This document shows positions 15,911 to 64,000 of a stretch of DNA of 64,000 bases, piece by piece. The stretch is from NCBI GenBank assembly GCA_016617855.1, contig JAECUM010005017.1, positions 20,382 through 84,381 on the forward strand. The letters run 5' to 3'. Under the pieces are notes generated by a model that had not been told where the DNA came from, did not search any database, and saw only the letters and a list, made by a program, of their open reading frames with translations. Position 1 is the stretch's first letter, and every line of letters starts with the position of its first letter. The position numbers and the translations under genes were made by a program. The stretch is from Megalonaias nervosa (lineage: Eukaryota; Mollusca; Bivalvia; Unionida; Unionidae).

Positions 15911-15915
15911 CACGA
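15911..15915. repeat. Target-site duplication CACGA, left copy (element A)
   Basis: CACGA directly precedes the left terminal repeat and recurs directly after the right one (27163-27167). Polintons usually make 6 bp duplications; the sixth base differs here on either side. Confidence 0.75.
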
Positions 15916-16165
15916 AGCAGCAGGGAAGGCGAATCCTACAACTTTTCAATTAGAGATTACGCTGAAAAATAAAGTTTCCTACGGACATGAAAATAACAAA
16001 CGTCAATAACGTCAAACCGAAGCTTCCAACCGACCCGAAACTTTCCTATTTGGGTTAGCTTATTTTTGTTACTTTATTTTTTGACATTTATGTTTTTGTT
16101 TTTTATGGAGTGTTTGTTTATGTACCCGCTCACTCACTTGTTGTCGTCGCCCTCCCTGCTGCTGT
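15916..16165 (+). repeat. Element A left terminal inverted repeat (~250 bp)
   Basis: Reverse-complementary to 26912-27162 over its whole length with about 10% mismatch. The outer end begins with AG, as Polinton ends commonly do. The inner end (GCCCTCCCTGCTGCT) is itself the inverse complement of the outer end (AGCAGCAGGGAAGGC), so the repeat is a foldback unit in its own right. Confidence 0.9.
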
Positions 16166-16193
16166 GTGGGTGTGGCTTAATTAAATCATTATC

Positions 16194-17155
16194 ATGTCAA
16201 TAATGGAATCTCACACAGCTAAACTAGTTCGACAGCGACTAGAGGCAATTAAGAAATATCTCCCCGTCCGTGATTCTGTCAAGCAACAACTACAAGCGCG
16301 TCAGGGGTCTCAGATGGAATGTACAGAGGGTACAGAACAGTTATTTGAACCAATCGTCGAACCGACAAAAAAAAATTGTTTCAGCAGCTGAGGCAACACA
16401 AAAAGCTCTAGAGACATTGCCTATTGATATTGTTGGACGACTTCAAGCAGCTAAAACCCGGGCAACCTCCTCAACCACCACCTGAAGTTCGACCACGACC
16501 TCCGCCAAGAGCCAGAATTAACATCATAGATAAATTCACGCCTGAAGGTAATGCGGCTATCAGAAATCGAACCCAATTACTTGATATTGCCTCGTGTGGA
16601 TATTAAAATAGAAATAATTATGTGAAACCCGAACATGTTAAAAATGTGAGACCTGCCGACTGGATTAAGAATGTCGCCGTTGATATTCCGCAAATCAGAA
16701 CTGAGAAAGATATTAATAATTTTGACATCTTTAACAATGCAGTACGCGAGTATATTGGACAAGCAAGACAAGAAGGAAAACAAAAAGAAGAAGGAATGAA
16801 GTCTAAACTTAAAGAGGTTGAACGAGCAAGGAAACAAAAAGGAAAAGAAGATTCGGAATATGAAGAAATTAGACGAAGGAGCGAATCACGTTCACCAAGT
16901 AAGAAATAAACAACTGGAAGTGGTCTGAGCAATTGGGTCACTCAAGGAAGTGGTCTTATTACTCCATATCCCAATAATATCCTTGCCGATGTTGAAGAAA
17001 TTTTGAATGGCGGAAAACGAGTTGGCAATAATTCCCCAGAAATCATTAATGAAGCAGCTGATATTTGTCTGAGATTATTTACGGGCGGTATTATGTATAT
17101 TAATGTTTATCGGTCCCTCATCGATGAAATAACCGATGATTACCGCAGTGATTGA
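16194..17155 (+). pseudogene. GSGL/coiled-coil virion protein (element A)
   Basis: First gene after the TIR. It begins MSIMESHTAKLVRQRLEAI and matches element B's first gene (shared RLEAIKKYLPVRDSVKQQL). Frame changes occur near 16370 and 16450 and stops near 16605 and 16907. After a Pro-rich middle and a Lys/Glu coiled-coil-like segment, the tail reads GSGLITPYPNNILADVEEIL and ends NVYRSLIDEITDDY. The conserved tail after GSGL also survives in elements B and D. Function unknown; the position at the head of the virion block suggests a structural or DNA-associated role. Confidence 0.65.
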
Positions 17156-17193
17156 TTAAGGGTATGCAATTAGATCAGTGACAAGAAAATAGG

Positions 17194-17709
17194 ATCATCA
17201 TACATAATACTCACCGTGGACCGATCATGGTCAGGGTGATAAATTCGCAATTACCTACATATAAAGAGTTCTACGGAGATGGATTCGGTGATGTTGTTCA
17301 GGGTCTATTTAGAAGGATACCCTGAAAAGCAATGCCATTTGTAAAGCAACTGGGGATGAAAGCTATTGATGCTGTTCGTGATAAAGGTATTGGTGTTGTT
17401 GGTGATGTTGCCGGTAAAGCATTCTCAGCAATCAAGAATAGACTATCACGATTAGTACGACGAAAACCTCAGCCAGTAAAATTACCTAGCACAAAAGTTA
17501 TGCCTGCAAATGTTAGTAAGATAAGAAATCAGGCTGCGAATCAAAAACTAGCGGAGTTGGCTATGCCTGAAAATGTTAGTAAGATAATAAATCAGGCTGC
17601 GAATCAAGAACTAGCGGAGTTGGCTGGTGTACCCCTAACAGGAAAAGAAAGAGAAAAAAATATAGCTGTTAGTCTGATAGCAAGAAGTGGTCTTCGTGTT
17701 AGACGATAA
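17194..17709 (+). pseudogene. pVI-like amphipathic virion protein (element A)
   Basis: Homolog of element B 51975-52456. The first ATG in frame is 17227, but similarity to B extends upstream (HRGPIMVRV versus QRGPTMVRV), so the original start was probably near 17194 and has mutated. YGDGFGDVVQGLFRRI is followed by an in-frame TGA at 17323, then a clean run to 17709. Adenovirus pVI-type proteins have an amphipathic, membrane-active N-terminus; the glycine-rich helix followed by basic sequence suggests that class by inference. A ~20-residue block (NVSKIxNQAANQxLAELA) is tandemly duplicated here, single in B. Confidence 0.6.
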
Positions 17710-17723
17710 CAAATATAATAAAG

Positions 17724-18416
17724 ATGTTCAAACGTGTATCTGATCCCGCATTCGACATGGACGCACCAGTTCTCAAGGATGAATCGGTACGTGATTATCA
17801 GTATTATTCTTATGACGCACGTGTACATGACGAGCGTGGAAGAATCGAATTACAAGTTCAGGATGGAAGCAGATATTTCCTGCCCGCTGAGGCAATTATT
17901 GAGATCGAAAGTAGACTTCTGAAATTAGATAATACAGATTACGGAATTGGTAATCAAGTTGGTTTTGTTAATAATGGCATCATGGCGTTGTTTAAAAGTG
18001 CCACATACATGATTGATGGTTGGGAAATTGAGGTTTGTCATAAGGACATCGACGTTGCCACGACGATACTTGGCCTTGCAAGATACAGCGATGATTATTC
18101 GAGATCAGCTGGTCCATCAATAATGTTTGCAAAGGATACAACTAATCATCCAGAAAATAGAAACGTAACACTAAACGCAGCTGGGGACACAGTTGTATCA
18201 ACGAATGAAAATTTCAACTTGGGATTCGCAACACGTCGACTAATGTTGAACGACGATGAAGAATTTTCATGTGCAATTCCACTATCACATATCTTTGGAT
18301 TTTGTAGAAATGTTAGAAAGGTCATTTTCCGGGCAAAACATACAATCGTCCTTGTGAGAAAAACATATTATGATCTGAATCAGAATAAATATTATTATCA
18401 AAATAAAAATAGATAG
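17724..18416 (+). pseudogene. Double-jelly-roll capsid candidate, 3'-truncated (element A)
   Basis: 230 codons closely matching the first half of element B's 464-residue protein: FDMDAPVLKDESVRDYQYYS, VGFVNNGIMALF, TTILGLAR, DDYSRSAGPS, AIPLSHIFGFCRNVRKVIF. Similarity stops after LVRK, where the sequence runs into TCTGAAT-type simple repeats and the frame ends in low-complexity codons. A deletion therefore removed the second half together with the downstream virion genes. The start is chosen to match B. Confidence 0.75.
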
Positions 18417-18560
18417 TATAATCTGAATCTGTATCAGAATAAAAAAAAAATATTATATAATCTGAATCTGAATCGGAATAAAAAAATGAATATTATATAA
18501 TCTGAATAAATCTGAATCAGAATAGAAATAAATATTATAATCTGAATCTGAATAAGAATA
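18417..18560. repeat. (TCTGAAT/AGAATAAA)n degenerate simple repeat
   Basis: Interspersed CTGAATC and AGAATAAA units at the capsid breakpoint. The same repeat type resumes at 19000-19100 and occurs, reverse-complemented, in element C at about 28615-28800. Confidence 0.85.
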
Positions 18561-18578
18561 AATACACCTTTCACTTTT

Positions 18579-18970
18579 TTAGCCCTCTTGATTTTCGTCA
18601 GTGACTTTGTCAGTGATTTTACAATCGTACAGAAAATTTTTCAGCTGTCGCACGAGTGAACTCATAGTCTTTTTTGTTTCGTATTAACGTGATAATTCTG
18701 ATCTAACTTTCTCAATCGTGTTTGCGAGTGAAACAAATTTTTCAATATCCTCATTATCGACATAAAGCAGAGATTATTTTACGGTCTGTTGAAATAACTT
18801 AATAAATCTATATTCAGCTGCTAGTGTATATCTGCCATCATCTTTCCGTTCCTGTAGCGCTTAAAAATCATTTGTGATTTTATCAGTATCCAATTGTTCA
18901 GATAATTCTATATCATCATCATTTAATTTTTAATCTCAGAAATAATCATATTAATATTTTCGGAATGCTT
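18579..18970 (-). pseudogene. Small conserved protein of unknown function, inverted (element A)
   Basis: The minus strand reads NINMIISEIKN, then RYTLAAEYRFIKLFQQ, then LANTIEKVRSEL and YETKKTMSSLVRQL. These align in order with element B 59285-59705 (NINVIVSAIKK, RFTLSADYKFMKIIQQ, LSNAIDKIKLEL, YEQKKIMNFRIRQL). Frameshifts and stops are present. In B the gene is on the + strand, so this segment is inverted relative to B. I recognise no domain; it looks helical and charged. Confidence 0.6.
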
Positions 18971-18999
18971 TATACAATAAATATTTGTTTAAAATAAAA

Positions 19000-19100
19000 T
19001 TAAATCTGAATCAGAATAAAAATATTTCTGAATCATAATAAAAAAAATAATAATATTTCTAAATCGGAATAAATATTATTATCAGAATAAAATTGAAATA
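19000..19100. repeat. Degenerate simple repeat, second block
   Basis: More CTGAATC/AGAATAAA units, flanking the inverted small gene together with 18417-18560. Confidence 0.8.
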
Positions 19101-19446
19101 AATAGGAACAATGATGAGTGGTTATCATTCCAAGGGTCCCTTCATTTGCCAGTATTTGCCGTTCCATAGGGTCCCCTCATCGATGCCTTTCTTATGGCTT
19201 GTATGGGGGCACCCTTCAAGATTTTCTTTCTGGCGACATTCTTTCTGAATGTCCTTCTGCAGTGTACCCTTCAGTGAAATTGAGAGCTACATCACGCTAC
19301 TGTTTATGTTTGGAGGCTCCAGTTTTCAAACTCGTTCATAGACACACACCCCGGCGAATTCCTAAAAGTGCAAAAAGAAATTTAAGAAATTCATAGGGCT
19401 GTCTATACGTTTTTCAATTTTATTCACACCCCCCAAATCAACCAGC

Positions 19447-19531
19447 GGGTGAGTGAAAAACAACGCTCACCACGTTTTTCGACGTGGTGAAGAGGTGTAC
19501 ATGAAATTCCCTGGGGCTGAAGCCCCCACTT
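19447..19531. other. Cluster of three hairpins
   Basis: Three adjacent inverted repeats within 85 bp: GGGTGAG...CGCTCACC, CACCACGT-tttcg-ACGTGGTG (8 bp perfect stem) and GGGGCT-ga-AGCCCC (6 bp perfect stem). The surrounding ~400 bp (19110-19535) is more GC-rich than the rest of element A. The nature of the segment is unknown. Confidence 0.6.
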
Positions 19532-19569
19532 ATTATGAAAAACTGCGAAATATTCATCAACGTCGACAA

Positions 19570-19650
19570 TATGTCAGTCACGGAATTTGGAACGCTAGAC
19601 CTCGAGTATGAGAATCCGCCATTCTAATACTGCGCCACGGACCCATCCTT
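19570..19650 (-). mobile_element. Degenerate tRNA-like SINE head
   Basis: The minus strand reads GGGTCCGTGGCGCAGTA, tRNA-like with an A-box region, then a weak B-box-like segment (GGTCTAGCGTTCCAAATTCC). No clear target duplication. Confidence 0.4.
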
Positions 19651-19714
19651 ACAAATATATGTTTCAGAAATTATTATGAAGTTACCTGTACTGGATAAAC
19701 AGGCAACCTACATG

Positions 19715-20190
19715 CGATCAGTATACTGAATAAATCATAATTTTTGTAAACTGCAATGTGGATTTGTTTCAATTTCCAAACACTGCATAAAATATCTGCA
19801 TTTAATAATCGCACATACATTTCTGCAAGATGTCATCCGGGAGTTTAAAGTACACGTAGGTCTGGTCTGTACAGCTGTCTTACCTGAAACATCTGAAAGT
19901 AACTTCCCTGGACTGCACACGCAAGCGGTGCGTGACTTACTGACGTTACCTAACGGGCAGTTCCTACAAGTGATCAGTATACTGAATAAATCACAACTGC
20001 TGCAAACTGCAGTGTGTATTTATTTCAAATTTCCAAACATAGGTATAAAATATCCGTATTTAATAATCGCACATACATTTCCTTAGGATGTCATTCGGGA
20101 GTTAAAGTACATGCAGATCTATTACATACTCCTGTACAAATATCTTACCTGTCTAACCTGTAAGAGCTAAAATAACTTACCTGGATAGAA
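19715..20190. repeat. Direct tandem duplication, ~255 bp unit
   Basis: GATCAGTATACTGAATAAAT begins both halves (about 19716 and 19970). Matching blocks AATAATCGCACATACATTTC and GATGTCAT follow at equal spacing. The copies have diverged moderately. Confidence 0.8.
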
Positions 20191-20341
20191 ACAGTAAAAA
20201 AAAATTATCGCTGCAGTCATATAATATTACGCAGTTACAAGCAGGGCAACTGCCTAATTACTCTACCGGAGAAAGCGTTGCTTCATAGAGTTATCTCCCT
20301 TCATCATCTAACACAATCATGAGATACTAAAATGTTATTTT

Positions 20342-20790
20342 TTGTTTATATTTCTTTGAAAACGCCGATTTGGATATATTATTTGCGACATATTGCACCG
20401 AACGCGCGTGAATATCACAATATTTTCCAGCTGCATTCATTGATTGAAATATTATTTCTTCGCCAGTCTCCGCGTTCACAGATTTAACAACCCTGGGAAA
20501 TTAACTATATTTTCCAGTACCCCTTGTGCCGAAATCTGACTCTGTGTTATAGCTTGTAAGTTACATAAAGAATTATCAAGTTTAATGCCGTTAATGTGAT
20601 CGATTGATCCCCAAAAAATTCGTAGATGAACTTAAGAGATAAATATCTTTTTCCCAGCATCAAATCTAAGATAACAAGCTTTATCAACAACACGGACTGG
20701 TTTTTCTAATCGACAGTTCCTGATTACACCATCACGAGATGCCTCATAATTTTCAATGATGGGATGCTTCACAAATTCATGTTGCTCCAT
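20342..20790 (-). pseudogene. NUMOD/HNH endonuclease-like protein (element A)
   Basis: Homolog of element B 60368-60892: the minus-strand start MEQHEFVKHPIIENYEASRD is followed by an HNH core DHINGIKLDNSL. An in-frame stop occurs before the core and further frameshifts after it. Same position as in B, tail-to-head with the zinc protein gene. Confidence 0.7.
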
Positions 20791-20890
20791 TATATAATAA
20801 TATTATTAGTCTAAATTATTTTGTTGCTGGGGTAAAAATCTGGCGAGAGAGTCTTCGGCGTTTTTAATAGGAGAGTCGACTCCATCGGAG

Positions 20891-21122
20891 TTATTTTTTG
20901 TCATAATATCGTTTCAGCTCTCTGTATTTTTTACCACCGCATTGTGCACACAACTGCGTTTCTCCTCTAACCCCAACACCACAGTTCAAGAACATTTTTG
21001 GTCCTAGAATCCCTCTACGAACACTTTGCATGTGACATCCACCGAATTCATTTATGCAAGCCCTGTTACAAGGAACTGAAGAACCAATCATAAGCCAATT
21101 GCATTTATTCTTTGCTTCAATC

Positions 21123-21124
<2 letters not shown>
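20891..21124 (-). pseudogene. Cys-rich zinc-binding protein (element A), C-terminus frameshifted
   Basis: Starting at MIEAKNKCNW (21124), the frame keeps CNRAC, CGVGVRGETQLCAQCGGKKY and RELKRYYDKK, then stops; B continues for another 25 residues. A longer frame reading upstream through the TA/TAA repeat is an artefact of the microsatellite. One Cys pair of B (PCIVCS) is changed here (LNCG). Confidence 0.7.
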
Positions 21125-21323
<199 letters not shown>

Positions 21324-21359
21324 ATCTTCAATTTAAAAATATATTTGCCTTACTTATGA

Positions 21360-24300
21360 TATGGAGGAATTTACGAGATTATCTACAATTAAGCACTCTA
21401 ATGCCTGATTCGACCTCGACAGAATAACCTCTCAATTACCAAGGCGAGTTTTGGTTGACTTAACAAATAAGACTCTAATCAATCGTATCAGTGAAGCCAA
21501 GAGAGAATTACGCGGCGATGGTGCAGCTTATGCGTGGTCAACATTCAGAATTGTATGCGACACCGATGGTGTTGTCAATGCTCCAATGAAAAATAAGCGA
21601 GCAGCAACAATTATTAATTATCTCGACGTTGCACGAAAATATATTTTTCGAATAAAATTTATAGTAGCGACAGAAGATGACGCATGGATTATCTGTGACA
21701 AACGTGATCCTGTTTGCGTGGGATACACTGGAAATATTGTCACGATAAATAAAAATTCAAAACCAGGAATACTGACTGAAATTGATGCACCTTATTATGA
21801 AGGAGCATATCCTGTGAAAGCAATTGTTCATGCGATATATCCGCTGACTGATAAGCCTGACGTCGATAAACTTTTACCAATGAAAATGTCTCGCCTGGAT
21901 TGTGTTGCTGAGAGAGTTACAGAACATTTCACAAACGCGAAATGCGCAAACGGTTTAACGGATCTAAGACGCAAAAAAATAAATGAGTGGGCAGAAACAG
22001 TTAAAGATACTGGAGCGCCTGTCAATGATGTTGCTGAACTGGAAAAAGTTAAGATTTCCAATAAGAGTGAAGACATTAACCTGAGAGATTTTATACAATC
22101 GAAATATAAAAAAATGGAGCTTAGATAGAGATTATTGATCATAACGCACACGCGTGGACTTCCGACATAATAATATTTCCATAAAATCGAACGGTTAAAT
22201 TCATTAACGGTGATATGTATGATTTTATCAGAAATATCAATAAGAGTGACCATGTGGCTGTTTCAGAGTTCATAATCTGTGAACTATGATCAGTTTGTAC
22301 GGCCTAATGAAGAGATTTATCGAACAAAATCTCTCCACGACGAGAGAAATCTCGCGTTGAAATACACAAACGATACTGATGTTATCGAACGATTACTCAG
22401 TAATTGTTTTACCGTTCCGTCAGTTGCTGCCCACGCTGCTCAAAAGTAAAATTCATGGAAACCAAAACGATTGGAATTTCTTGAAGATGTCCAACGCAGT
22501 TGTATCGAGTACGGACACGGCGGATTATGGAGTACTAATATGGTTATGGTTGCATATTATCCTGGAAGTTTTCTTGGATACGGAGAATGTTCTGAGTATT
22601 TCAAACGATTTGGACATCCAACACACGAGATGACCAGAGATCGATAAATGGACCCTTGTCAGATTTTGACCTGACCGGATTCGCGTGTATCGAGTCATTC
22701 GAGTTTGCACCGAAAAACCTTCATCCGATTGTCGCTGTTTGGTTTGGAAGACATTTTTCAGAAAAAAATTGGGTTCTAATAGTTTTATTACGATATATCA
22801 TTGATGTAAAAATATTAATATCGATGGTTGTAAGTGAAGCAATTATATCATATAATCCGCAAAAAAAGTTTGGTTACCACAGCAAAAGAAATATTCCCCT
22901 GATGAAAATTCTGATATAACTGATTTTGAGAATAAATTCGCAAAGGATCTTGGTTGGAAAATAATTGGTAAATTATGACCATAAACGACATTGTTGTAGA
23001 CTAATCATCGAGGAAGCTGAACTCGATTTTATAATTGCTGATACAACAGAGAGAGGCACATTTATAAGTACGAATAATGTTAATTTATCAGACGGAACTA
23101 AATTAGGTACAATTGTGAGTTACACTGAAGGTGACTCGCCACAGTTTACTCATTTAAGATCTTGAATGCTCGTGTATGTTTTGATAAATTTATTATCGAT
23201 GATAAATAGATTTTCTAACACCGCAGTTAGAGTCTCCACAGATCCATTTTAAATCAATAAAAAATACACAGGATTGCAAACACAATTACGTATCGGCGCT
23301 GATGCATTACGGGACGAATAGAGAATAAAACGAGAAATGATTCTTAGTTATTCTGAATCGGCCGACGTTGAATCTAAGGAAATATATTATAAAAATAAAT
23401 AGATGCGGCTCCATCGGCATATGATCCCGTGGCCAGACATAAGATTGTTTATCTCAATGGACCTGGAGGTTCTGGATAAACAACACGTGCGACTGAATTA
23501 TTTTGTCGCAGTACATCGTACTGTGTTGATATGGTTGTTTTGACACCCACACATAGATTTACCAGAGGAATGAACGAACGAGGAGTTAATTCGTGTACGT
23601 ATCACAGCTTCTTTCGATGGAAGTGAGATATATGGACTTCACAACGAATGGGTGAGAAATATATCCCTACGATTATTATTTGGGATGAAATTTGTACAGT
23701 ATCGTTGGAGGTATTAAAAATATTTCTTAATTGGTTACTGACAAAAAATACTGCGATTATCTTGTGTGGTGATCATGGTTAACCACCACAATTTGTTGGA
23801 TCATCTCCACACGAATGGCTGAAAAGTTCGTTGATTATTATGAGGAGATAACTGATGATCATAGAGCTATTGATGAACCACTGAAAGAATTTAAAAGATT
23901 AATCAGACTGCAGCCAGATAATATTCAATGTGAGATAATGCGTGAAGTAACTCCAGAGACTACGATGAATGATTTTTTTTTTAATTTGTGGAAACCTGAT
24001 GATTTGATAGTTGCAAGCCGAAATATAGTTCGTGATACGCTTCAAGAGAAATTATTTCCGTTACATAAACAAAAGTTTTCAGAGTTACCGGTGCCGCTTT
24101 GTTATCGCCCAGCAGATACACGAAAACATAATAATAAGGTTTATATTCCAGAAGCTAATGAGAAACAAAAACTCGTTCTTGATGATGTTGTTGTTGATGT
24201 GAATGCCGTTGAGAGCTCATTAACGATGGACAAATCTCCGTGGACTATACGATACGCTGTAACGAATCACTCGTCACAGGAATAAACTATTTCTGATACA

Positions 24301-24740
24301 AATATCTGGACTGTCGATGATCGGATCGAATGGTCGAATTTAGATTATCTAACAGTGTGGAGAACCAGAAAAATATCTCAGATACGGAGACTTATCATGG
24401 ATCGCGCAATAACCGAAGAAATCACTGATATCAATTGCGATGATGTAGTTAACAACAAAGTTGTCAAGAAACAATTAGCTGGTTATCAGCGATCTGACAA
24501 AAAAAGTAACAGTGACTTTGATCTTGATATTGAAATTATCATGACACTGAAACAACGACAGAATAATAATTGTGCAAGCTGTAATACAGTAATGTTGTGG
24601 CAGTATTCGGATAATAATCCAAGACAATTCACCGTGGATAGAATTAATAGTAATCTCGGTCACACACGCGAAATCTGATATTGACCTCTCTTGAGTGTAA
24701 TCGACGTAGGGTTGCTAGTGTTTTGCTTTTACGGAAGTGA
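21360..24740 (+). pseudogene. Replicase: PolB-like palm + SF1 helicase + HNH (element A)
   Basis: Collinear with element B's replicase, with many frameshifts. A clean stretch at 21451-22128 covers the N-terminal region (ERVTEHFTNA...GLTDLRRKKI). The palm motif A region survives as AYYPGSFLGYGEC, with the aspartate lost. The helicase Walker A at about 23465 is damaged (YLNGPGGSG then a stop), and the Walker B region IIWDEICTVS is readable. 23815-24285 covers the helicase middle, ending IRYAVTNHSSQ, the helicase C-terminal signature. The C-terminus carries an HNH unit: CASC...FTVDRINSNLGHTRE...LECNRRR, ending near 24740. It converges with the integrase gene. Inactive, but it defines the protein's 3' end, which B's copy runs past the window to reach. 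Confidence 0.75.
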
Positions 24741-25699
24741 AAGGCGGCGGTAATTGTGTATCTTCAGGAATTACTTGTCATTGTTCACGTACAAATCCAC
24801 GCTGAGGAGCAGTTGAATCTAGTCTGTAGATTGCAGGTCTACCCGGGGATCTTACTACGCTGGAAATTTTATGGGTAGTCACACTCCAAATGGGATCATT
24901 TGCTCTCTTTCACCACCTTCAAGTTCACCAGGTTCATATAAATATCTTACAGTTACAGGTTGTTTTGAGGAAGAGACGCGTCGTTCTATTGGTATGTTTT
25001 TTGTGATCGCGCTGATGAGTTTCAAAGAAGTTGCACGAGTAATATCATTATTTAATGCAACTATCACACTTGGTAGTCTTGCAACCAATTCACGAGATCT
25101 TTTGTCTTTCTGAATTTTATTCAAGGATATTTCCTGCGCATACTGATATCCAAATAACCGCTCAGCAAGTGCTCGATTAAATCGTTCAACGATTGCCTGA
25201 TCGTGATGAATTGTTGTATGTCCTCGCTTGATTTTGACGATTTGTTTTTTCGTCAGAGATGATATTGCACCAAGAAATTCTTTGCGAGGATCAACCTGTA
25301 GTAGCCCTGGCCATCGCAAAGGTCCTCATTGATACATTCGTTCAAAAGCAGATGCAACTTCAGTTGCCGTCTCTGTTGATAGTGGTTTTGCTTCATTATA
25401 TCTACTTGCAACGTCAACGACAGTTAACGTATATTTGTATGTGCGCCATTGACGTCAACATGTTTTGATAGTATCATGTGGTAAAAAAAAATATCTTCCT
25501 GATGAATTTCATTGGGAGTGCTGACGTCAGAATGTGAATACTAAATTTGTTTAGGTGGTGGTAGATAAATTTGCCATATTGCTTGTCGTGCTAACCAATT
25601 CTCAGCAACAGAACGTGCGACACCTGCTGCATCAGCAAGTTTACTAATCGCTGCTCTACCCCTCTAATATCCTCTTGGGCTATAATAAATCGATTCCAT
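24715..25699 (-). pseudogene. Polinton-type DDE integrase (element A)
   Basis: The minus strand starts MESIYYSPRGY, followed after a frameshift by a helix-turn-helix-like AISKLADAAGVARSVAENWL. The rve-type core follows: TVVDVASRYNEAKPL (first Asp, codon 25413-25415), LLQVDPRKEFLGAI (second Asp, codon 25290-25292) and DQAIVERFNRALAERLFGYQ (Glu, codon 25185-25187), with 34 residues between the last two. A C-terminal region reads RYLYEPGELEGG and then, after another frameshift, RGFVREQ. This retrovirus-like integrase family joins Polinton ends to host DNA. At least three frameshifts or stops make it inactive. Neighbours: replicase converging, PLA2 gene upstream on the same strand. Confidence 0.85.
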
Positions 25700-25711
25700 T
25701 ATAATAGTTAT

Positions 25712-26204
25712 CTATGATTCATTACCGTCCCCTAGTACTAGTTCACCTTTCATCGCAGATTTTACTAGGAAGCTAGCGATTTTTTCTTTGAGAGATTTAT
25801 CTTTTATGGAATTTAACGAGTGAATCAACCTCGCATCTGCAATATGACTTTATTTTCATACGCGACATCTTGAACGTGGCATGCTTGATCAATCGCATTT
25901 ATTGGATACTCTCCGGGTCTTGGTTGGTCTTGTTCGTCAAGTCGGATATCAAGTCAGGTTCCAGGACCACAATAATTATATCCAGGGAGATATTTTTCTC
26001 CTGGGTATTTAGCCCATGGAGTCACTGGTAATTTTTCCAGTAAAGCAGCGATATCACCACCTGTCTTCGTATGAGACGAAATAAATCTTTATTTGTTTGT
26101 ACCACATTTTATACACCTGCCTGTAAGTGCACGCTTTTTATTTTTTGTTATTGTTGGCGTTAATCCACTTGTGGGGTGGATGCTCTGCATCGAACACAAT
26201 ATAA
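25712..26204 (-). pseudogene. Zinc ribbon + phospholipase A2-like protein (element A)
   Basis: The minus strand opens with YCVRCRASTP and, after a frameshift, RALTGRCIKCGTNK: two CxxC knuckles of a small zinc ribbon found on viral proteins (DUF5679-like). After another frameshift come LLEKLPVTPWAKYPGEKYLP and NYCGPGT, the Ca2+-loop signature of the parvovirus-type PLA2 fold, then PINAIDQACHVQDVAY, the active-site helix. A TGA follows GPGT directly, and the catalytic His position of the usual HDxxY reads Gln. Viral PLA2 domains help virions escape endosomes; that role is inferred by family. The initiator codon is lost. Confidence 0.7.
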
Positions 26205-26232
26205 ATTTATATTGTTTATTATATTTACACAA

Positions 26233-26911
26233 TATGGATGCCATTGATTTCTCAGCGACACGAAAGGAAGAGCCAATCAAGCATCATGCAGCGCTTCCAA
26301 ATTCTATCAGAGCAAATATAATAGGTCCATCTGGGTCTGGTAAGACGCAATTGTTGCTTAATCTGATAATGAGATTGCTACAGTGGGATAAGTTATATTT
26401 AGTGGCACCATCCGCAGATGATTAGCGATGCTACGATGTACTTAAAGATTTTAACAAAGAAGCGAAGTCGTTGGATGAAGAGGAAGATGATAATGATATT
26501 ATTGATTTTGTCACCGATATTGATGAAGCTCCATCTGTGGATGATCTCGATGGACGTATTAATAATCTCTTAGTATATGATGATGTGATGCTGTACAAAC
26601 AATCAAATCCAGCTCGGATATATTCCAGAGGTAGACACAAAAATACCGATGTAATATATGTTACTCTTTGATATACACAAATACCTAAAGTGATCAGAGA
26701 TAACTGCAATATTTTTGTTGTATTTAATGGAGTCGGTACACATACTCTGCGAAACATTCATCAGACTTGGTGTTCAGGGGATATGGATATGATTAAATTC
26801 AAAACTTGTACTCAAAAGCGCAAGCTACCACACACGGATTTATCACGATAAATTTACATGATCCTCGTTCGCGATATAGTATTGGTCTCGATAAATCTTT
26901 TGACAGAGAAA
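26233..26911 (+). pseudogene. A32/FtsK-type packaging ATPase (element A)
   Basis: Starts MDAIDFSATRKEEPIKHHAA. Walker A is GPSGSGKT (residues 31-38), followed by LLLNLIMRLLQWDKLYLV. A TAG at 26423 interrupts, and the same frame then continues through an acidic linker to Walker B NLLVYDDVM (about residue 115). A TGA at 26669 precedes IPKVIRDNCNIFVVF, and the last block HGFITINLHDPRSRYSIGL is in another frame. It ends at the edge of the right TIR. This ATPase class translocates DNA into jelly-roll capsids. It is divergently oriented to the PLA2 gene with about 30 bp between them. Confidence 0.8.
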
Positions 26912-27162
26912 CACAGCAGCAGGGAGGGCGACTTCATCGAGTGAGTGAGCGGATACAGAAACAAACAAGCCATAAAAAACAAAAACATAAATGTCAAAAA
27001 ATAAAGTAAGAAAAATAAGCTAACCCAAATAGGAAAGTTTCGGGTCGGTAAGAAGCTTCGGTTTGACGTTATTGACGTCTGTTATTTTCATGTCCGTAGG
27101 AAACTTTATTTTTTAGCTAAATCTCTAATTGAAACGTTCTAGGGTTCGACCTCCCTGCTGCT
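26912..27162 (-). repeat. Element A right terminal inverted repeat (~250 bp)
   Basis: Inverse complement of 15916-16165. It ends CCCTGCTGCT at 27162, followed by CACGA. Confidence 0.9.
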
Positions 27163-27167
27163 CACGA
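27163..27167. repeat. Target-site duplication CACGA, right copy (element A)
   Basis: Matches 15911-15915. Confidence 0.75.
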
Positions 27168-27246: not shown

Positions 27247-28021
27247 TTAAGGAGCACTTTCTTTCAATACAATTTTAATACTCTCAATAACTCTGAACAT
27301 GCTTTTGGGTGTCCAAGAAAATTCGCGTGTCTGACCAAGACTACTATTAATTCTATCCGCGGTAAACTGTATTGGATTATTATTCGAATACAGCCACAAC
27401 ATATTACAGTTACAACTTGTACAATGATTATTCTGTCGTTGTTTCAGTGTCATGATAAATTGAACATCGAAATCAAAATTGCGGTTATTTTTTTTGGTCA
27501 GATTGTCGATACCCAGATAATTTTTTCTTGACAATTTCATCGTTGACGATGTCAGCGATTCTATTATCATTGTCTATGATAACCCGGCCCAATTGAGATA
27601 TTCTTCTGACTCGAGATACCGCAAGATAAACTAAATTTGACGATTCGATCCGATCATTAATAATCCAAATATTTGTATCAGAAATAGTTAATCCTTGGGA
27701 TGAATGAATTGTTATAGCGTATCCTAACGTCCATGGAGATTTATCCATCGTTAACGCGCTCGTAACAGCACTTACAGGAACTGCGATAATATCATTAAGT
27801 ACAAGTTTTTGTTTAACATTAGTTCCTGGAATTTCAACTTCGATATTTTGTTTTCGTGTATCTGCTATCGATAACACAATGGTACAGGTAGATTTGAAAA
27901 TCTTTCCTTGTGTAACAGAAATAATTTATCTTGCAGTGTATCTCTGACTATCTTTCTACTTGCAACTATCAAATCAACTGGTCTCCATAAATTCCAAAAA
28001 TCATTCATAGTAGTTGATGAT
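27247..28021 (-). pseudogene. Replicase C-terminal part: SF1 helicase end + HNH (element C)
   Basis: The minus strand reads TTMNDFWNLWRPVDLIVASR, then PLCYR and TRKQNIEVEIPGTNVKQKLV. The helicase signature GYAITIHSSQGLTI is followed by NLVYLAVSRVRRISQLGR, canonical SF1 motifs V/VI that are better preserved here than in A. After a frameshift comes the HNH unit CTSC...FTADRINSSLGQTRE. The N-terminal two-thirds is deleted; the fragment begins exactly where the tandem repeats end (28022). Confidence 0.75.
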
Positions 28022-28409
28022 GAGATATACTTGCGTATGGGTGATTGCAAGATTGTAAAAAAAAAACTAATTCCAGGTGTAATTTGCCTGGCACCCCCGA
28101 GATATACTTGTGTATGGGTGATTGTAAGATTGTAAAAAAAAACTAATTCCAGGTGTAATTTGCCTGGCACCCCCGAGATATACTTGTGTATAGGTGATTG
28201 TAAGATCGTAAAAAAAAAACAAAACTAATTCCAGGTGTAATTTGCCTGGCACCCCCGAGATATACTTGTGTATGGGTGATTGTAAGATTGTTAAAAAAAA
28301 AACTAATTCCAGGTGTAACTTGCCTGGCACCCCCGAGATATACTTGTGCATGGGTGATTGTAAGATTAAAAAAAAACTAATTCCAGGTGTAACTTGCCTG
28401 GCACCCCCG
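28022..28409. repeat. Five tandem copies of a ~78 bp unit
   Basis: GAGATATACTTG starts at 28022, 28099, 28175, 28257 and 28335. Each unit has a poly(A) run and the small inverted repeat CCAGG...CCTGG, and ends GGCACCCCC. The copies are nearly identical, differing mainly in poly(A) length. ORFs read through the array are by-products of the periodicity. Confidence 0.95.
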
Positions 28410-50630: not shown

Positions 50631-50812
50631 AGCAGCAGAGAGGGTGGACCCTACAACTTTGTAGAGACCTTATTTTTGAAATTTAAGGGTTCCTACGAAG
50701 ACTGAAAAAAAAGTTTTTGCCTTAATAGTAAAAACTTCTCTAATTGACCAGATTTTTTCTGATTTTTTCACGTGCTGGTCACTACGCGTATGTCGTTCAC
50801 CTTCTCTGCTGC
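50631..50812 (+). repeat. Element B left terminal repeat (~182 bp)
   Basis: Begins AGCAGCAGAGAGGGTGGACC and ends GTTCACCTTCTCTGCTGC, the near-perfect inverse complement of the outer end. Start and layout parallel element A's TIR (AGCAGCAGGGA...CCTACAAC near the outer end, TTCCTACG inside), but the length and most of the interior differ. The partner repeat lies beyond the window. Confidence 0.7.
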
Positions 50813-52464: not shown

Positions 52465-53859
52465 ATGTTTAAGCGTATATCTGACCCCGCGTTTGACATG
52501 GATGCACCAGTTCTCAAAGATGAGTCTGTGCGCGATTATCAGTATTATTCTTATGACGCACGACTGCCAAATCAGCGTGGACGAATCGAACAACAGGTTC
52601 AGGATACAAGTAGGTATTTCTTGCCCGCTGAAGCATTTATTGAAGTTGAAGGTGAAATTTTAAATAACGTTGTTCCTGCAGTACCAGCACCATATGGAGC
52701 TGATGTTAGGGTTGGTTTTGTTAATAATGGTATTATGGCGTTATTTGATAGCTCTACGTACATGATTGACGGAAAAAATATTGAATCAATCCAGAAAGAC
52801 GTTGATGTTGCTACAACAATACTTGGTCTTGCGAGAGACAGCGACGATTATTCAAGATCAGCTGGTCCATCAATGATGTTTGTCAAGGATACTTCTGACC
52901 ATCCTGATAACAGAAATCAGGTTACTCGACAGCCCAATGATCGAGCTGTTCCTCCTGTTGCTGCTGCTATTGAAGATCTATATTTTCCAAATCCAGAATT
53001 TAACTTAGGATTTGCAGCACGTAAATTAATGTTAAAAGGTGATAGGAGAACATTTTCATGTGCAATTCCACTGTCACATATCTTTGGATTCTGTAGAAAT
53101 GTCAGAAAAGTCATTTTCGGAGCCAAACATACGGTTGTACTTGTGCGAAAAGGCGATGATAATGATGCATTATGGAGACCCATTGGTGATCCTGGTATAG
53201 TAGTACTAACAAAACTTTCCCTGTGGATGCCAGTGATGACTCCGTCAATATCTGAAGAAGACCGGTTGTTATCTTTTATGAGTCAAGGCGGTAAATCAAC
53301 TTTGTCATGGTTGACTATGACCACAGATGCTGTTGATAGCGCTATTAATGGTTTATGTACATGGCAAATAGCTTCTCAGCAAGGTGTTTCTGCACCAAGA
53401 CATATACTTATTGCGTTTCAAAATACTGCACGAGTAAATAGTCAGACACAAAATATTATGGTATTTGATAAACTCGGTGTTTCTCAAGTATCTCTGAGGA
53501 TAAATGGACACCAAGAACCATCCGCGGATATATTACTGAATTTCGATCAAAATCATGTAGCACGTGCATATCATCGTCTTATGTCGTTCATGGGACGTGA
53601 TCAAAACATTGATACTGGTTTACAAATATCGCAGCTAGATTTTACAACGCTGTATCCGATTTATTACTTTTCATTAGAACATTTAGATTTAACCAGACAA
53701 TCTGTTGTAGATATTCATTTTCGAGCTCGTGTTAATAGAGATCTTGGAGCTATCCCTAATTACAGAGCAATCGCCGTTATACTCAGCGATAAATCGATGT
53801 TACTCGAAGGTGTTGGTGGACGAATGAGAGTTATTGATGCCCCAGTAGAAAACATGTAA
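52465..53859 (+). CDS. Major capsid candidate, double-jelly-roll-like domain protein
   Basis: Intact, 464 residues, nine bases after the pVI-like gene. Conserved landmarks with element A: FDMDAPVLKDESVRDYQYYS near the N-terminus, RYFLPAEAFIEVEGEI (about 50-65), VGFVNNGIMALFDSSTYMID, TTILGLAR, DDYSRSAGPS, CAIPLSHIFGFCRNVRKVIF (about 195-215), and LYPIYYFSLEHLDLTRQ late. I associate this pattern with the animal double-jelly-roll-like family (long known only as uncharacterised proteins) from invertebrate Polinton-like viruses. Abundant predicted beta strands and the place within the virion block support a capsid role. The assignment is family-based, not proven here. Confidence 0.7.
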   Translation: MFKRISDPAFDMDAPVLKDESVRDYQYYSYDARLPNQRGRIEQQVQDTSRYFLPAEAFIEVEGEILNNVVPAVPAPYGADVRVGFVNNGIMALFDSSTYMIDGKNIESIQKDVDVATTILGLARDSDDYSRSAGPSMMFVKDTSDHPDNRNQVTRQPNDRAVPPVAAAIEDLYFPNPEFNLGFAARKLMLKGDRRTFSCAIPLSHIFGFCRNVRKVIFGAKHTVVLVRKGDDNDALWRPIGDPGIVVLTKLSLWMPVMTPSISEEDRLLSFMSQGGKSTLSWLTMTTDAVDSAINGLCTWQIASQQGVSAPRHILIAFQNTARVNSQTQNIMVFDKLGVSQVSLRINGHQEPSADILLNFDQNHVARAYHRLMSFMGRDQNIDTGLQISQLDFTTLYPIYYFSLEHLDLTRQSVVDIHFRARVNRDLGAIPNYRAIAVILSDKSMLLEGVGGRMRVIDAPVENM

Positions 53860-53882: not shown

Positions 53883-54425
53883 ATGTCATATCATCACGTT
53901 AGTGTGAGTCTGACTCCTGGTCAGATCAAAAAGCTGCAATCAGCATCAAAAAATAACTGTGGAATAAAAATATCGCTAAAGCGAGAACAAATGACCGGTA
54001 CAAATAAATTATCGTTGACCGAGCGTCAGTTCAAAAACTTCAATGAAGCTAAAAAATCAAATAAAGGCGTCAAACTTAATCTTTCTGCGGGCGCCATCAA
54101 AGACGTTGCTAAATCGGGTGGTATATTTCCACTTCTCGCAGCTATACCAGCATTAATAGCCGCTGCAGCCCCAGCTGTTGCAAAAGCAGCTGCGCTAGGT
54201 GCTGTTGGAACTGCTGCTGGAATGGCATTAAAGAAAGCAACTGGACAAGGAATCAAAAAAAAGGGAAGCGGTTTAAGACTACCAGGAACCCCGTATTCGT
54301 GGTACGGAAAGGGTCTAAGACTACCAGGAACCCCGTATTCGTGGCACGGAAAGGGTCTAAGACTACCAGGAACCCCGTATTCGTGGTACGGAAAGGGTTT
54401 AAGACTTCCCGGGACAGTTTACTAA
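53883..54425 (+). CDS. Hydrophobic pX-like virion protein with C-terminal tandem repeats
   Basis: Intact, 180 residues. The N-terminal half is basic with 'SLTPGQIKKLQSA' and 'LTERQFKNF' helices. The central block GIFPLLAAIPALIAAAAPAV and following Ala-rich sequence (about 80-118) are strongly hydrophobic. The C-terminus has three 14-residue repeats, GLRLPGTPYSWYGK or a close variant, plus a partial fourth (GLRLPGTVY). GLRLPG-like short repeats after a hydrophobic segment recall small adenovirus/adintovirus core or membrane-interacting proteins (pX-like); this is analogy. Element D keeps the hydrophobic core of the same gene. Confidence 0.6.
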   Translation: MSYHHVSVSLTPGQIKKLQSASKNNCGIKISLKREQMTGTNKLSLTERQFKNFNEAKKSNKGVKLNLSAGAIKDVAKSGGIFPLLAAIPALIAAAAPAVAKAAALGAVGTAAGMALKKATGQGIKKKGSGLRLPGTPYSWYGKGLRLPGTPYSWHGKGLRLPGTPYSWYGKGLRLPGTVY

Positions 54426-54433
54426 TATCACCC

Positions 54434-54835
54434 ATGTCCAATTTTGATTTACTTAATGCTGCTAAGCAACTAAAAATAAAAAACTTCAGAGGTGTTTTTA
54501 TGCGCGATCAATTACCAAAAAAACCAAACAATATTGAAACCGGTATCATTATTCTCGATAAAAACTCTGGCCCAGGCACGCACTGGGTCGCATATGCAAT
54601 TGATCCACGTGGAATTATTTATTTCGATTCGTATGGATTAGCGCCACCAAAAGAATTTTTAAAGTAAGTTACCGGCGATATTCCAATCTGGTATTCAATG
54701 CTACCAACACAAAAAATAACTGATCCCCCAATATGCGGTCGTGAAACCCTCGCTGTGCTTGATGCTGTATCAAAATCAACAGCACCACCTCATAAAGTCG
54801 TGCACGCGTTCACTACACTACGTCATAACACTTAA
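54434..54835 (+). pseudogene. Adenain-like cysteine protease, one in-frame TAA (element B)
   Basis: 133 codons. KNFRGVFMRD then GPGTHWVAY with catalytic His50, and IIYFDSYG with Asp65. A TAA at 54665-54667 (codon 78) follows. Beyond it the same frame continues LPTQKITDPPICG, giving Gln93 and nucleophile Cys101, and ends TLRHNT at 54833. All four adenain catalytic positions are thus present but split by one nonsense codon. The family matures virion precursors. At about 133 residues it is shorter than adenovirus protease (about 200). It lies 8 bp after the hydrophobic protein gene and overlaps nothing of the fibre frame that matters. Confidence 0.8.
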
Positions 54836-54860
54836 ACAGATATCAATAAATATAATTGTA

Positions 54861-55547
54861 GATATTTATGGAAGATCCTCAGGTAGAGCTCAGAAAGTCG
54901 ATTTATCTAAATATGCAACTCTTGATCAGCTCAGAAATGAAATCGATGATTTATTAAATATCACAAGTGTGGATCAAAATGAAGTCGTCGTTTTTCAGGA
55001 CAAACAAGGACGATTAAAAACGAGTAACATACAACTACTAGATGTACTTGTACGAATTCCCAACGCGGTTGTTAATAATATCGTTACTTTTACTGATCAA
55101 GGTAAAATACAGGATTCCGGTAAATCGGTTAACGACTATGTTAAGAAAACTGGTGATGTATTTACCGGTGACATTATTATGTCAGGAAGAAAAATTACAT
55201 ATCTTGGAGATCCAATCGCAAATACAGACGCAGCAACAAAAAAATACGTCGATGATCAAGAATCCAAGTACGTGTCAGTGCGCGGTGGTATAATGCGTGC
55301 ATTTCTCGACATGAATAATAATGGTATTAATAATCTCAGAACACCAGAAACAGATTTTGACGCCGCAACGAAGAAATACGTCGACGATAAGGAAATTCCA
55401 ATAACGACTTCGTTAACGACAATCAATGATGGAATTGCTGCATTTAGAACTGATTATATTAATCACGTGCAAACGTTTCTAAATTTCCGTAGAAATGTAA
55501 ACAGATCTATTAACGAATTTTTGGAACTCCACCAGTCGTTGACATAA
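54861..55547 (+). CDS. Fibre/tail-spike-like protein
   Basis: The longest frame opens at 54741, but its first ~40 codons overlap the protease in another frame and look random. The conserved part starts at IYGRSSGRAQ (54861 onwards), where no ATG is present, so the initiator is uncertain or lost. Two repeats typical of trimeric phage-type fibres are visible: GDVFTGDIIMSGRKITYLGD, then ANTDAATKKYVDD, and later MNNNGINNLRTPE, then FDAATKKYVDD. A short helical C-terminus follows. Such proteins project from vertices and bind host surfaces. Located between the protease and the 128-residue protein. Confidence 0.7.
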   Translation, partial: DIYGRSSGRAQKVDLSKYATLDQLRNEIDDLLNITSVDQNEVVVFQDKQGRLKTSNIQLLDVLVRIPNAVVNNIVTFTDQGKIQDSGKSVNDYVKKTGDVFTGDIIMSGRKITYLGDPIANTDAATKKYVDDQESKYVSVRGGIMRAFLDMNNNGINNLRTPETDFDAATKKYVDDKEIPITTSLTTINDGIAAFRTDYINHVQTFLNFRRNVNRSINEFLELHQSLT

Positions 55548-59821: not shown

Positions 59822-60082
59822 TTTTTTCGTTGAGTTTGCTAGTTTTCGTTGGGTCAAAATCCCAGGAAGGTTAACGGGAATTAACATTAGGTTTTAAATT
59901 TATCGATGAAAAACTGGTTTTTTCCAGTTCTTTTGCTCGTATTGTGTAGTTTTTTGCTAGCGAATTACGATAAAAATCCGGAAAAAACTAGTATTTGATC
60001 GATAAATTTAAAACCTAATGTTAATTCCCGTTAACCTTCCTGGGGATTTCACCCAACGAAAACGAGCAAACTCAACGAAAAA
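59822..60082. mobile_element. Long foldback (inverted-repeat) element flanked by CAATG
   Basis: The left arm (about 59822-59910: TTTTTCGTTGAGTTTGCT... to TTAAATTTATCGAT) and right arm (about 59999-60082) are inverse complements over about 85 bp with few mismatches. The ~85 bp loop itself contains a partial inverted repeat (AAAAACTGGTTTTTTCC and GGAAAAAACTAG). CAATG directly flanks both sides (59817-59821, 60083-60087). It lies between convergent genes of element B. Confidence 0.8.
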
Positions 60083-61263: not shown

Positions 61264-64000
61264 ATGGAACAATTATCCGTGATTGAACCCTACGCAACCA
61301 GATTCGATCTTGACAGACTACCCGAGTATAAATTTAGTATTTCGATGCAAGATCTAGCTTTAACGAATGCGGATATAACTAAACGTATCCGTGAAGCCAA
61401 GAAGGAATTTCGTGACGATGGTGCAGTTCATGCATGGTCAAAATTCAGAGTTGGAAATGTTTCTAATACGATGAATGACAAACGAGGAAGAGTAATCATT
61501 AACCACCTTGATAATCAAAAATATTTTATTTCAATAAAATTTATTGTAAATACAGAAGAAGATATTTGGATTATTCGTGACAAGCGCGATCCCGTCCGCG
61601 TGCAGTCAGGAAATAATATCTTCTTGAGTAATAAATCTAAACCAGGAATACTAACTGGTATAGATAAACCGTATTATGAGCGATCGTATCCAGTGACTGC
61701 GGTTGTCTATGGAATATTTCCGCTGAATAATAAACCTAATGTTGGGGATCTCAAACCGATGAAATTGTCAAGGATAAACTGCGTAGCTGAGCGAGTTACA
61801 GAACACTTTACAAACGCGATACGTGGTAATGGTTTAACAGATTTAAGACTTAAAAAAATAAATGACTGGGCAGAGTCGGTTAAAGATACCGGAGCGTCTA
61901 TCAGCGACGTTGCTGAGCTAGAGAAGAAATTAAGATTCCCAATAGCAGTAAAAACGTTAACCGGAGAGATTTTGTACAAACCGAAATATATAAAAAATGG
62001 AGCTCCGATAGATATTATTGATCATAACGCGCACGCATGGACTGCTGCAGTAACAATATTTCCACGAGATAGAAAGATTAAATTTTATGACGGTGATATC
62101 TTTGATTTTATTAAAAATATTAGTAAAACCGATCCTGTTTCTGTCTGGTTATTTCAGAGTTCGGAATATGATCATTACGATCAATTTGTACGACCTAACG
62201 GTGATATTTATCGTACAGAATCTCTCCATGAGGAAATGGAACATCTTGCACTGAAATATACCTCTGATGATGTCATAGTTAGACAATTACTGAATAACTG
62301 TTTTACTGTTCCGTCAGTCGCTGCTCATTTCGCTCAGGAGAAAAATTCATGGAAAACGACACGATCGGAATTTCTTGAAGATGTCAAGAAAAGTTGTATA
62401 GAATATGGGCACGGTGGATTATGGAACACCAAATACGATTATAGTGATGTTATCTCGGTTGATATGGTAGCGTGTTATCCTGGGAGTTTTCTTGGATATG
62501 GAGCATGTTCTAAATACTTTAAGAGATTCGGACATCCTACACATGACATGACCAGGGTTGCAATAAACGGACCCTTACCAGATTTTGACTTAACAGGATT
62601 TGCTCACGTAGAATCATTCGAGTTTAGAGAAGATCTCCATGTGATTACTTATATTTGGTTCGGAAAACATTTTTCAGAGCGACGTTGGGTTCCGATAGTA
62701 CTATTGCGATATATGCTTGATGCTGGATTTTTAATATCGTTGAGAGTAACTGAAGCGATTATATCATATAGTTCACAGAAGCAAGTTTGGTTACCAGAAC
62801 CGGACAGATTTAATATCGATGATACCAGGAAAGAATTCCCTGATATTGATGAAGATCATGTCATTAAAATAAGTAAATGCAGGAACGAGTATGATGAAAA
62901 ACTTGCAAAAGATCTTGGTAGAAAGATAATCGGTAAGTTTACTCAAGGGGGTTCATACGATTATAAACGATATTGTACAAGATTGATTATGGACGATGCT
63001 GAACTAGATTTTATAATCGCTGATACAACGGAGAAAAACACATTTATAAACCGATGTAATGCTTATTTATCAGATGGAACAAAACTAGGTACCATTGTGA
63101 GCTATCTTGATGGCGACTCACCACAGTTTATTCATTTAAGATCTTCGATGTTAGCTTATGTTTCGATAAATCTATTGTCGATGATAAATAGATTTCCTCG
63201 TTACGCTGTTAGAGTTGCTACGGATTCATTTTATGTACACAAAAAATATAAAGATTTATTAAAACTCGGTAATGGTGAATGGGGGACGTGGAGGATAAAA
63301 CAAGAAAATATATTTAGTTATTCTAAATCTGCCGACGTTGAAATTGCGGAGACATATTACAAAAATAATAATCAAATATCAAAATCATCTGCACCATCTG
63401 TGTATGATCCTGTATCTAGACATAAGACCGTTTATCTTAGTGGGTGTGGAGGTTCAGGTAAAACAACTTGTGCGATTAATTTATTTATGAATAATAACTC
63501 AGATATAATTGTTTTGACACCTACACATAAACTTGCTAGAGAAATAAAGCAACGAGGAGTAAAATCATGTACATACCATAGTTTCTTTAGATGGTGCGGA
63601 GACACGTGGACCCCATCGCGGATGGGTGAAAAGTATATACCTAGGCATATATTATGGGACGAGATATGCACGGTGTCGTTAGAAACACTAAAAACATTTC
63701 TTGATTGGTTGTTATTGAAGAATACTGCTGTGATCATGTGTGGCGATCATGGTCAACCACCACCCTTTGTTGGACAGTCTCCACATGAATGGTTGAAAAC
63801 ATTTGTAGATTATTATGAAGAAATAAATGATGACCATAGAGCTATTGATGAACCGCTGAAAGAACTTAAAAGATTAATCAGACTGCAGCCAGATCAAACA
63901 CAATGCGAGATACTGCGTAAAGTAATTGCAGAAACTTCTATGAATGAATTTTGGATTTTATGGAGACCTGCTGATTTGATAGTCGCAAGTAGAAAGATAG
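61264..64000 (+). CDS. Replicase: divergent family-B polymerase palm fused to SF1 helicase (partial, runs off window)
   Basis: Open from ATG 61264 to the window edge (912 codons). Residues 1-380: a conserved region with no assigned fold (CVAERVTEHFTNA near 175). Palm-like motifs: motif A SVDMVACYPGSFLGYG with Asp400; motif B-like AKDLGRKIIGKF (Lys549 onward); motif C RVATDSFYV with Asp654. The SF1 helicase follows: Walker A GCGGSGKTT (727-735), motif Ia LTPTHKLA, Walker B LWDE (Asp799-Glu800) and motif III GDHGQPPP (827 onward). Homologs in A and C add helicase motifs V/VI and a C-terminal HNH. I infer a one-protein replication machine. No 3'-5' exonuclease motif was found. Confidence 0.75.
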   Translation, partial: MEQLSVIEPYATRFDLDRLPEYKFSISMQDLALTNADITKRIREAKKEFRDDGAVHAWSKFRVGNVSNTMNDKRGRVIINHLDNQKYFISIKFIVNTEEDIWIIRDKRDPVRVQSGNNIFLSNKSKPGILTGIDKPYYERSYPVTAVVYGIFPLNNKPNVGDLKPMKLSRINCVAERVTEHFTNAIRGNGLTDLRLKKINDWAESVKDTGASISDVAELEKKLRFPIAVKTLTGEILYKPKYIKNGAPIDIIDHNAHAWTAAVTIFPRDRKIKFYDGDIFDFIKNISKTDPVSVWLFQSSEYDHYDQFVRPNGDIYRTESLHEEMEHLALKYTSDDVIVRQLLNNCFTVPSVAAHFAQEKNSWKTTRSEFLEDVKKSCIEYGHGGLWNTKYDYSDVISVDMVACYPGSFLGYGACSKYFKRFGHPTHDMTRVAINGPLPDFDLTGFAHVESFEFREDLHVITYIWFGKHFSERRWVPIVLLRYMLDAGFLISLRVTEAIISYSSQKQVWLPEPDRFNIDDTRKEFPDIDEDHVIKISKCRNEYDEKLAKDLGRKIIGKFTQGGSYDYKRYCTRLIMDDAELDFIIADTTEKNTFINRCNAYLSDGTKLGTIVSYLDGDSPQFIHLRSSMLAYVSINLLSMINRFPRYAVRVATDSFYVHKKYKDLLKLGNGEWGTWRIKQENIFSYSKSADVEIAETYYKNNNQISKSSAPSVYDPVSRHKTVYLSGCGGSGKTTCAINLFMNNNSDIIVLTPTHKLAREIKQRGVKSCTYHSFFRWCGDTWTPSRMGEKYIPRHILWDEICTVSLETLKTFLDWLLLKNTAVIMCGDHGQPPPFVGQSPHEWLKTFVDYYEEINDDHRAIDEPLKELKRLIRLQPDQTQCEILRKVIAETSMNEFWILWRPADLIVASRKI

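Follow-up and report, generated by a model that had tools for sequence, protein, structure and literature searches.

A probable Tlr1-like polymerase-helicase fusion in an endogenous polinton-like virus of the mussel Megalonaias nervosa

We analysed a 64,000-nt stretch of DNA from the mussel Megalonaias nervosa (assembly GCA_016617855.1, contig JAECUM010005017.1; hereafter the window), which carries the elements A, B and C. The open frame of element B at the right-hand edge of the window, here called copy B, very probably encodes the enzyme with which an endogenous polinton-like virus (PLV) of an animal replicates, a Tlr1-like fusion of a protein-primed family B DNA polymerase with a superfamily 1 (SF1) helicase (pPolB-S1H). 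We put the probability of this reading at roughly 0.85. The enzyme is ordered as an N-terminal domain in the position of a terminal protein (TP), an OTU-like protease, a protein-primed PolB palm in which we recognised no exonuclease by eye, a PIF1-like SF1 helicase and a C-terminal HNH-like unit. Directly observed are the order of the domains, a polymerase fold and an OTU resemblance in predicted models, conserved catalytic residues, the anatomy of the element, its copy number and a ratio of nonsynonymous to synonymous substitution rates (dN/dS) well below 1.

The frame of copy B (61264-63999, +) starts at an ATG, contains 912 codons without a stop and runs past the window edge. Because the contig ends at the last base of the window (positions 20382-84381 of the contig), copy B cannot be extended past 64000. 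The original prediction, made from the letters alone, had listed a set of polymerase and helicase motifs, and all of them were found in this frame: DMVACYP (residues 400-406), GKF within IIGKF (Lys558) and ATDS within VATDS (Asp654) for the polymerase, and Walker A (GGSGKTT, Lys733), Walker B (WDE, 798-800) and GDHGQ (827-831) for the helicase. It had called the copy intact, which is true only of the readable part, since the contig end cuts the frame. Its view that one polypeptide joins a palm of PolB type to an SF1 helicase and, at the C-terminus, to an HNH-like unit was supported, with the addition of an OTU-like domain that it had overlooked.

The palm was assigned to the protein-primed PolB class by predicted structure. 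The lack of a palm in the predicted structure had been named beforehand as a refutation; the models contain a palm at the level of the fold. Within the family alignment (A1), the motif-A residue Asp400 is present in 23/23 and Asp654 in 25/25 non-gap rows. Motif C reads ATDS; the first Asp of DTD is lost and the motif-A Asp is kept. The usual Asn/Tyr of motif B is also absent. Pfam did not recognise the palm of copy B, and a search of solved structures with a single sequence (P0001) did not find it, returning only two RNA-binding domains (E 0.46 and 0.97) that we take as chance. Direct hhalign comparison with phi29 polymerase aligned the motif-C region alone, and weakly (E 0.14, probability 0.4%). 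No Exo motif was recognised by eye, yet residues from 267 onwards align to phi29 polymerase from its residue 52. N-terminal to the palm lies a vOTU-type domain with Cys and His, the OTU resemblance of residues 157-264 being seen in predicted models. Neither residues 1-125 nor residues 265-345 had an informative match among the folds listed, which is not evidence for a new fold.

The helicase is the sole part of the copy B frame recognised by Pfam (AAA_19, 7.6e-11; AAA_30, 1.2e-8; both above the cut-off), and it sits C-terminal to the palm in one frame. We assign it to the PIF1/RecD-like SF1 helicases because the family profile matches solved chains of PIF1 (best E 4.9e-5) and RecD (3.9e-4), and because the PHROG families of Dda-like helicases (6.1e-9) and exonuclease V (1.3e-7) match as well. 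The top row of the search of solved chains (E 3.6e-5) bears the name TPR domain protein; we take this chain to be a bacterial Pif1.

The C-terminus was read from other copies. Broken copies A and C both carry the end of the helicase followed by an end motif, CASCN...VDRINSNLGHTRE in element A (24286-24675, +) and CTSCN...ADRINSSLGQTRE in element C (27250-27573, -). The GHTRE that had been reported from both is present in A; in C we read GQTRE. The general pattern is CxxC...DR...GH...CxxC, with DR where DH is usual, and Pfam scores it as HNH at E 0.10-0.12, below the cut-off. Read by eye, 22 of 25 aligned family members reach the DR...C..C region; the others are the window protein, cut before it, P0002, which stops short, and P0077, which lacks it. 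The unit may be a mobile endonuclease remnant or a processing nuclease. Element B also holds a free-standing HNH_3/NUMOD1 homing-endonuclease-like gene (window 60368-60892, -; 6.6e-12), distinct from the HNH-like end of the fusion. Between palm and helicase, many of the relatives P0006-P0035 in the alignment carry an inserted cysteine-rich stretch (CxC...CxxC) that is absent from the window protein.

A search of 5.8 billion proteins by shared 5-residue words scored the 7,993 candidates with the most words in common; of these, 85 relatives reached E<=1e-3. In the assembly containing the window (2.19 Gb, 54,709 contigs), we scored at least 50 polymerase places and at least 91 capsid places, the window's own included in both; the other 49 polymerase places are at 93-97% identity. 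With 85 relatives and 50 scored genomic places, the fusion is far beyond chance. Among the scored polymerase places, 26/50 are stop-free in the match, and in 8/50 the stop-free frame is 1,150 codons or longer. For the capsid, 74/91 scored places are stop-free in the match, a comparison of best matches in which the polymerase query is twice as long. Twenty loci were fetched, including that of the window, and L009 (1,153 codons) and L011 (1,155) run unbroken into ...CLECNRRRG.

Named animal hosts among the relatives comprise two sea slugs, Elysia crispata and E. marginata, and the coral Desmophyllum pertusum; named fungal hosts are Gigaspora margarita, Diversispora epigaea, Cetraspora pellucida and Racocetra persica. 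Two relatives are labelled as metagenome-assembled genomes (MAGs) of Thiodiazotropha and are probably host DNA. The single relative in genome_contigs lies on a 3.2-kb contig (L001) binned as an archaeon, which is probably mis-binned. Family pieces in MAGs labelled Diapherotrites and Thiodiazotropha (L001, P0039, P0079) are probably host or viral contamination of the bins.

Constraint was measured over 78 pairs from the 13 of 20 loci with open frames of at least 900 codons. The pooled dN/dS is 0.288 at a median pairwise dS of 0.080, in a set biased to open frames because the seven loci with shorter frames were left out. By part, the values are 0.377 for the N-terminal part, 0.429 for the OTU region, 0.287 for the palm and 0.201 for the helicase. 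Ten residues (173, 254, 400, 558, 654, 733, 799, 800, 828 and 831) were checked in the 13 loci and are kept in all of them, save for a gap at Cys173 in L017 and a Lys in place of Glu800 in L020.

Separate palm and helicase trees, which the original prediction had proposed, gave a divided answer. They were built from 45 of 70 sequences, the remaining 25 being excluded because one part or the other was covered to no more than 80%. Distances in the two parts agree (Mantel r 0.90; 0/999 permutations as high), and these sequences suggest that palm and helicase mostly travelled together within the family. The trees have 10 of 42 splits in common, with 17 strongly supported splits for the palm and 14 for the helicase. 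Strongly supported splits contradict each other in 12 pairs, so that the two domains may also have been swapped between family members.

The surroundings of the fusion are those of an endogenous PLV, with a double-jelly-roll capsid protein, an A32-type ATPase, an integrase and inverted repeats with a target duplication (Table 1). In copy L023, the RVE integrase, phospholipase A2 protein and A32-type ATPase come directly after the polymerase, and the same three are present as remains in element A. Among the 13 other open reading frames of element B, Pfam found no second, stand-alone PolB; as Pfam is also blind to the fused palm, such a gene may still be present.

Table 1. Positions of the fusion, its parts and the other element features in the window
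Feature	Position	Strand	Evidence or remark
pPolB-S1H fusion open frame, copy B	61264..63999	+	912 aa, truncated by contig end
N-terminal alpha/beta domain, residues 1-125	61264..61638	+	Predicted structure; at the terminal-protein position
OTU-like cysteine protease domain, residues 157-264	61732..62055	+	Cys173, His254/His257
Protein-primed PolB-like palm/thumb, residues 346-700	62299..63363	+	Predicted structure; alignment
Palm motifs	within 62299..63363	+	A, Asp400; B-like, GKF 557-559; C, ATDS 652-655
PIF1/RecD-like SF1 helicase, N-terminal half	63406..63999	+	Remainder beyond contig end
Helicase motifs	within 63406..63999	+	Walker A Lys733; Walker B Asp799-Glu800; GDHGQ 827-831
Left terminal repeat region, element B	50631..50812	+	89% to inverted sequence just past ATPase in copy L023
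Double-jelly-roll major capsid protein, element B	52465..53859	+	PF21738, 6e-18
Adenain-like (C5) protease fragment, element B	54299..54667	+	Pfam Peptidase_C5, E 0.19, below cut-off; GTHWVAY...FDSYG by eye
Fibre protein with phage tail-fibre-like repeats (TKKYVDD), element B	54741..55547	+	PHROG tail families, best 6e-11
Element A, decayed copy	15916..27162	+	Inverted repeats 15916-16167 / 26911-27162 (252 nt, 92%)
Target-site duplication CACGA (5 bp), element A, left	15911..15915	.	Right copy 27163-27167
Major capsid protein fragment, element A	17724..18362	+	
Broken fusion pieces, element A	21409..24675	+	Profile positions 47-1143
RVE integrase remains, element A	25080..25699	-	Relative in L023, rve 2.9e-9
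Phospholipase A2-like protein remains, element A	25721..26287	-	L023, PF08398 3.3e-12
A32-type packaging ATPase remains, element A	26234..26901	+	L023, PF04665 1.2e-12
Broken helicase C-terminal and HNH-like pieces, element C	27250..28224	-	Profile positions 895-1143

Several further features lie in or near the elements. Inside element B is a large inverted repeat (window 59823-60082; 111-nt arms, 91%, 38-nt loop). Near element C are remains of a 217-aa gene of element B (window 29895-30458, -; 73%); because they lie much closer to the end of the polymerase there than in B, element C has probably lost intervening sequence. A second, divergent packaging-ATPase relic (window 7134-7563, -) is 43-52% identical to the element ATPase and belongs to another element type. 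Between elements A and B, an open frame with H2C2 and rve domains (window 32712-33740, +) is probably a retrotransposon integrase.

According to PMC11071308, the Tlr1-like helicases found in PLVs and transpovirons are fusions for which the name pPolB-S1H is proposed; it credits an earlier paper. The order it gives is vOTU, protein-primed palm and S1H, with a motif C lacking its first Asp and an end of HNH or GIY-YIG type. The mussel family likewise has vOTU, palm and SF1 helicase in one chain, the same loss in motif C and a PIF1-like helicase, and its end resembles an HNH unit. The Tlr1 element, like the mussel element, has RVE integrase, packaging ATPase and capsid genes. Two claims of the original prediction give way before this description, namely that fusions in PLVs use another type of polymerase and that the module may be undescribed; the latter reading was rejected. 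Unlike the Tlr1-like systems, the mussel family is animal-hosted and high-copy, with relatives in sea slugs, coral and arbuscular mycorrhizal fungi. Its motif B is more degenerate when judged by the usual motif, its TP domain was not recognised, and its likeness to the Tlr1-like proteins is judged from their published description.

Polintons and adintoviruses have a stand-alone pPolB that keeps its exonuclease. They share with the mussel element a capsid, packaging ATPase, RVE integrase, inverted repeats and a palm of the protein-primed class, and differ from it in that the mussel palm shares a single frame with an SF1 helicase, a distinction that had been drawn correctly at the outset. OmPLV of Oxyrrhis marina has an independent Helicase SF1-pPolB fusion (PMC12721341), also in one chain, with the helicase N-terminal and the exonuclease kept; the mussel protein has the opposite order, palm then helicase. 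The PolA(TVpol)-S3H and AEP-S3H fusions of virophages and PLVs join polymerase and helicase in one chain too, using other polymerase families and an SF3 helicase. HelPol (PMC11071296) was set apart as a different polymerase by its description. PMC12220804 describes cryptophyte PLVs with SF1-GIY-YIG proteins and phage-like fibres, which the fibre protein of element B resembles, and its excerpts mention animal PLVs without a link to a pPolB-S1H enzyme. We found no animal pPolB-S1H member in print, in a search of titles and abstract openings in mainly open-access literature, with most subscription papers outside it.

There are three main doubts. By its residues, a palm with degenerate motifs B and C may be inactive; the fusion may not be the same event as in Tlr1; and the HNH-like end, its usual His being Arg, may not cut DNA.

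Taken furthest, the first doubt makes the palm a dead relic and the protein a helicase with a structural polymerase remnant, which we consider unlikely. The missing first Asp of motif C and Asn/Tyr of motif B would fit such a relic, and the earlier paper credited in PMC11071308, taken here to be Krupovic et al. 2016, speaks in its title of an inactivated DNA polymerase. However, Asp400 and Asp654 are kept in every non-gap row, the palm has a dN/dS of 0.287 in this genome, and PMC11071308 makes the case that polymerases without this Asp are active, withdrawing the earlier view of inactivation.

Also unlikely is that the animal and fungal family arose when a polinton-type pPolB was joined to a PIF1-like helicase independently of Tlr1, so that the two merely look alike. 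The separate Oxyrrhis fusion in the opposite order (PMC12721341) is a precedent. The protein search and a profile protein search gave no named Tlr1, PLV or transpoviron sequence, most matches being nameless; IMG/VR scans with the fusion found nothing, and IMG/VR scans with capsid and ATPase and a tblastn of a phage collection again gave no named Tlr1, PLV or transpoviron sequence. This absence is weak, since the protein search needed shared 5-residue words and each IMG/VR fusion scan used two peptide patterns. Moreover, the order, the OTU position, the lost motif-C Asp, the helicase type and the HNH-like end are all as described for Tlr1-like proteins.

That the sequence is a contaminant, from a protist or free virus outside the animal genome, is highly improbable: PLVs with this enzyme have been published from protists and giant-virus plasmids, and relatives lie on small contigs binned as prokaryotes (L001; the Thiodiazotropha MAG names), but the polymerase and capsid places are spread over many contigs, some over 100 kb, a decayed copy with its target duplication lies inside the window, and species-named capsid matches are solely freshwater mussels (Sinanodonta woodiana, 55% over 61% of the query; Potamilus streckersoni, 59% over 44%), a hint of a related host. 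To our knowledge, Wnt genes are confined to animals, and the 27 Wnt exon matches in the assembly, against 0/14 control genomes matched, mark it as an animal's.

If copy B is a Tlr1-like replication enzyme, its N-terminal domain would, after a published model, provide the hydroxyl that primes synthesis where a linear genome ends in inverted repeats, and the OTU domain would separate primer from polymerase. The palm would extend and copy, while the fused helicase would open the duplex or displace a strand; PIF1/RecD relatives move 5'-3'. The RVE integrase would then insert the product with a 5-bp duplication. Priming, cleavage and palm activity are proposed by analogy. A bolder and rather unlikely version is a high-copy animal PLV lineage that replicates by a pPolB-S1H-HNH enzyme with a palm that works in spite of its degenerate motifs B and C. 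This enzyme may have arisen by a fusion separate from that of the protist Tlr1 enzymes, or have moved between animals and arbuscular mycorrhizal fungi.

In conclusion, the pPolB-S1H module, known in print from a ciliate element, PLVs of algae and transpovirons, is here extended to an animal genome that holds many copies of it; judged by its named relatives, it also occurs in sea slugs, a coral and mycorrhizal fungi. The multicopy set lets constraint be compared among the polymerase, protease-like and helicase parts, a comparison relevant to the question of whether the polymerase part is still alive. The extension further shows Polinton-type elements swapping replication modules while the capsid module stays.
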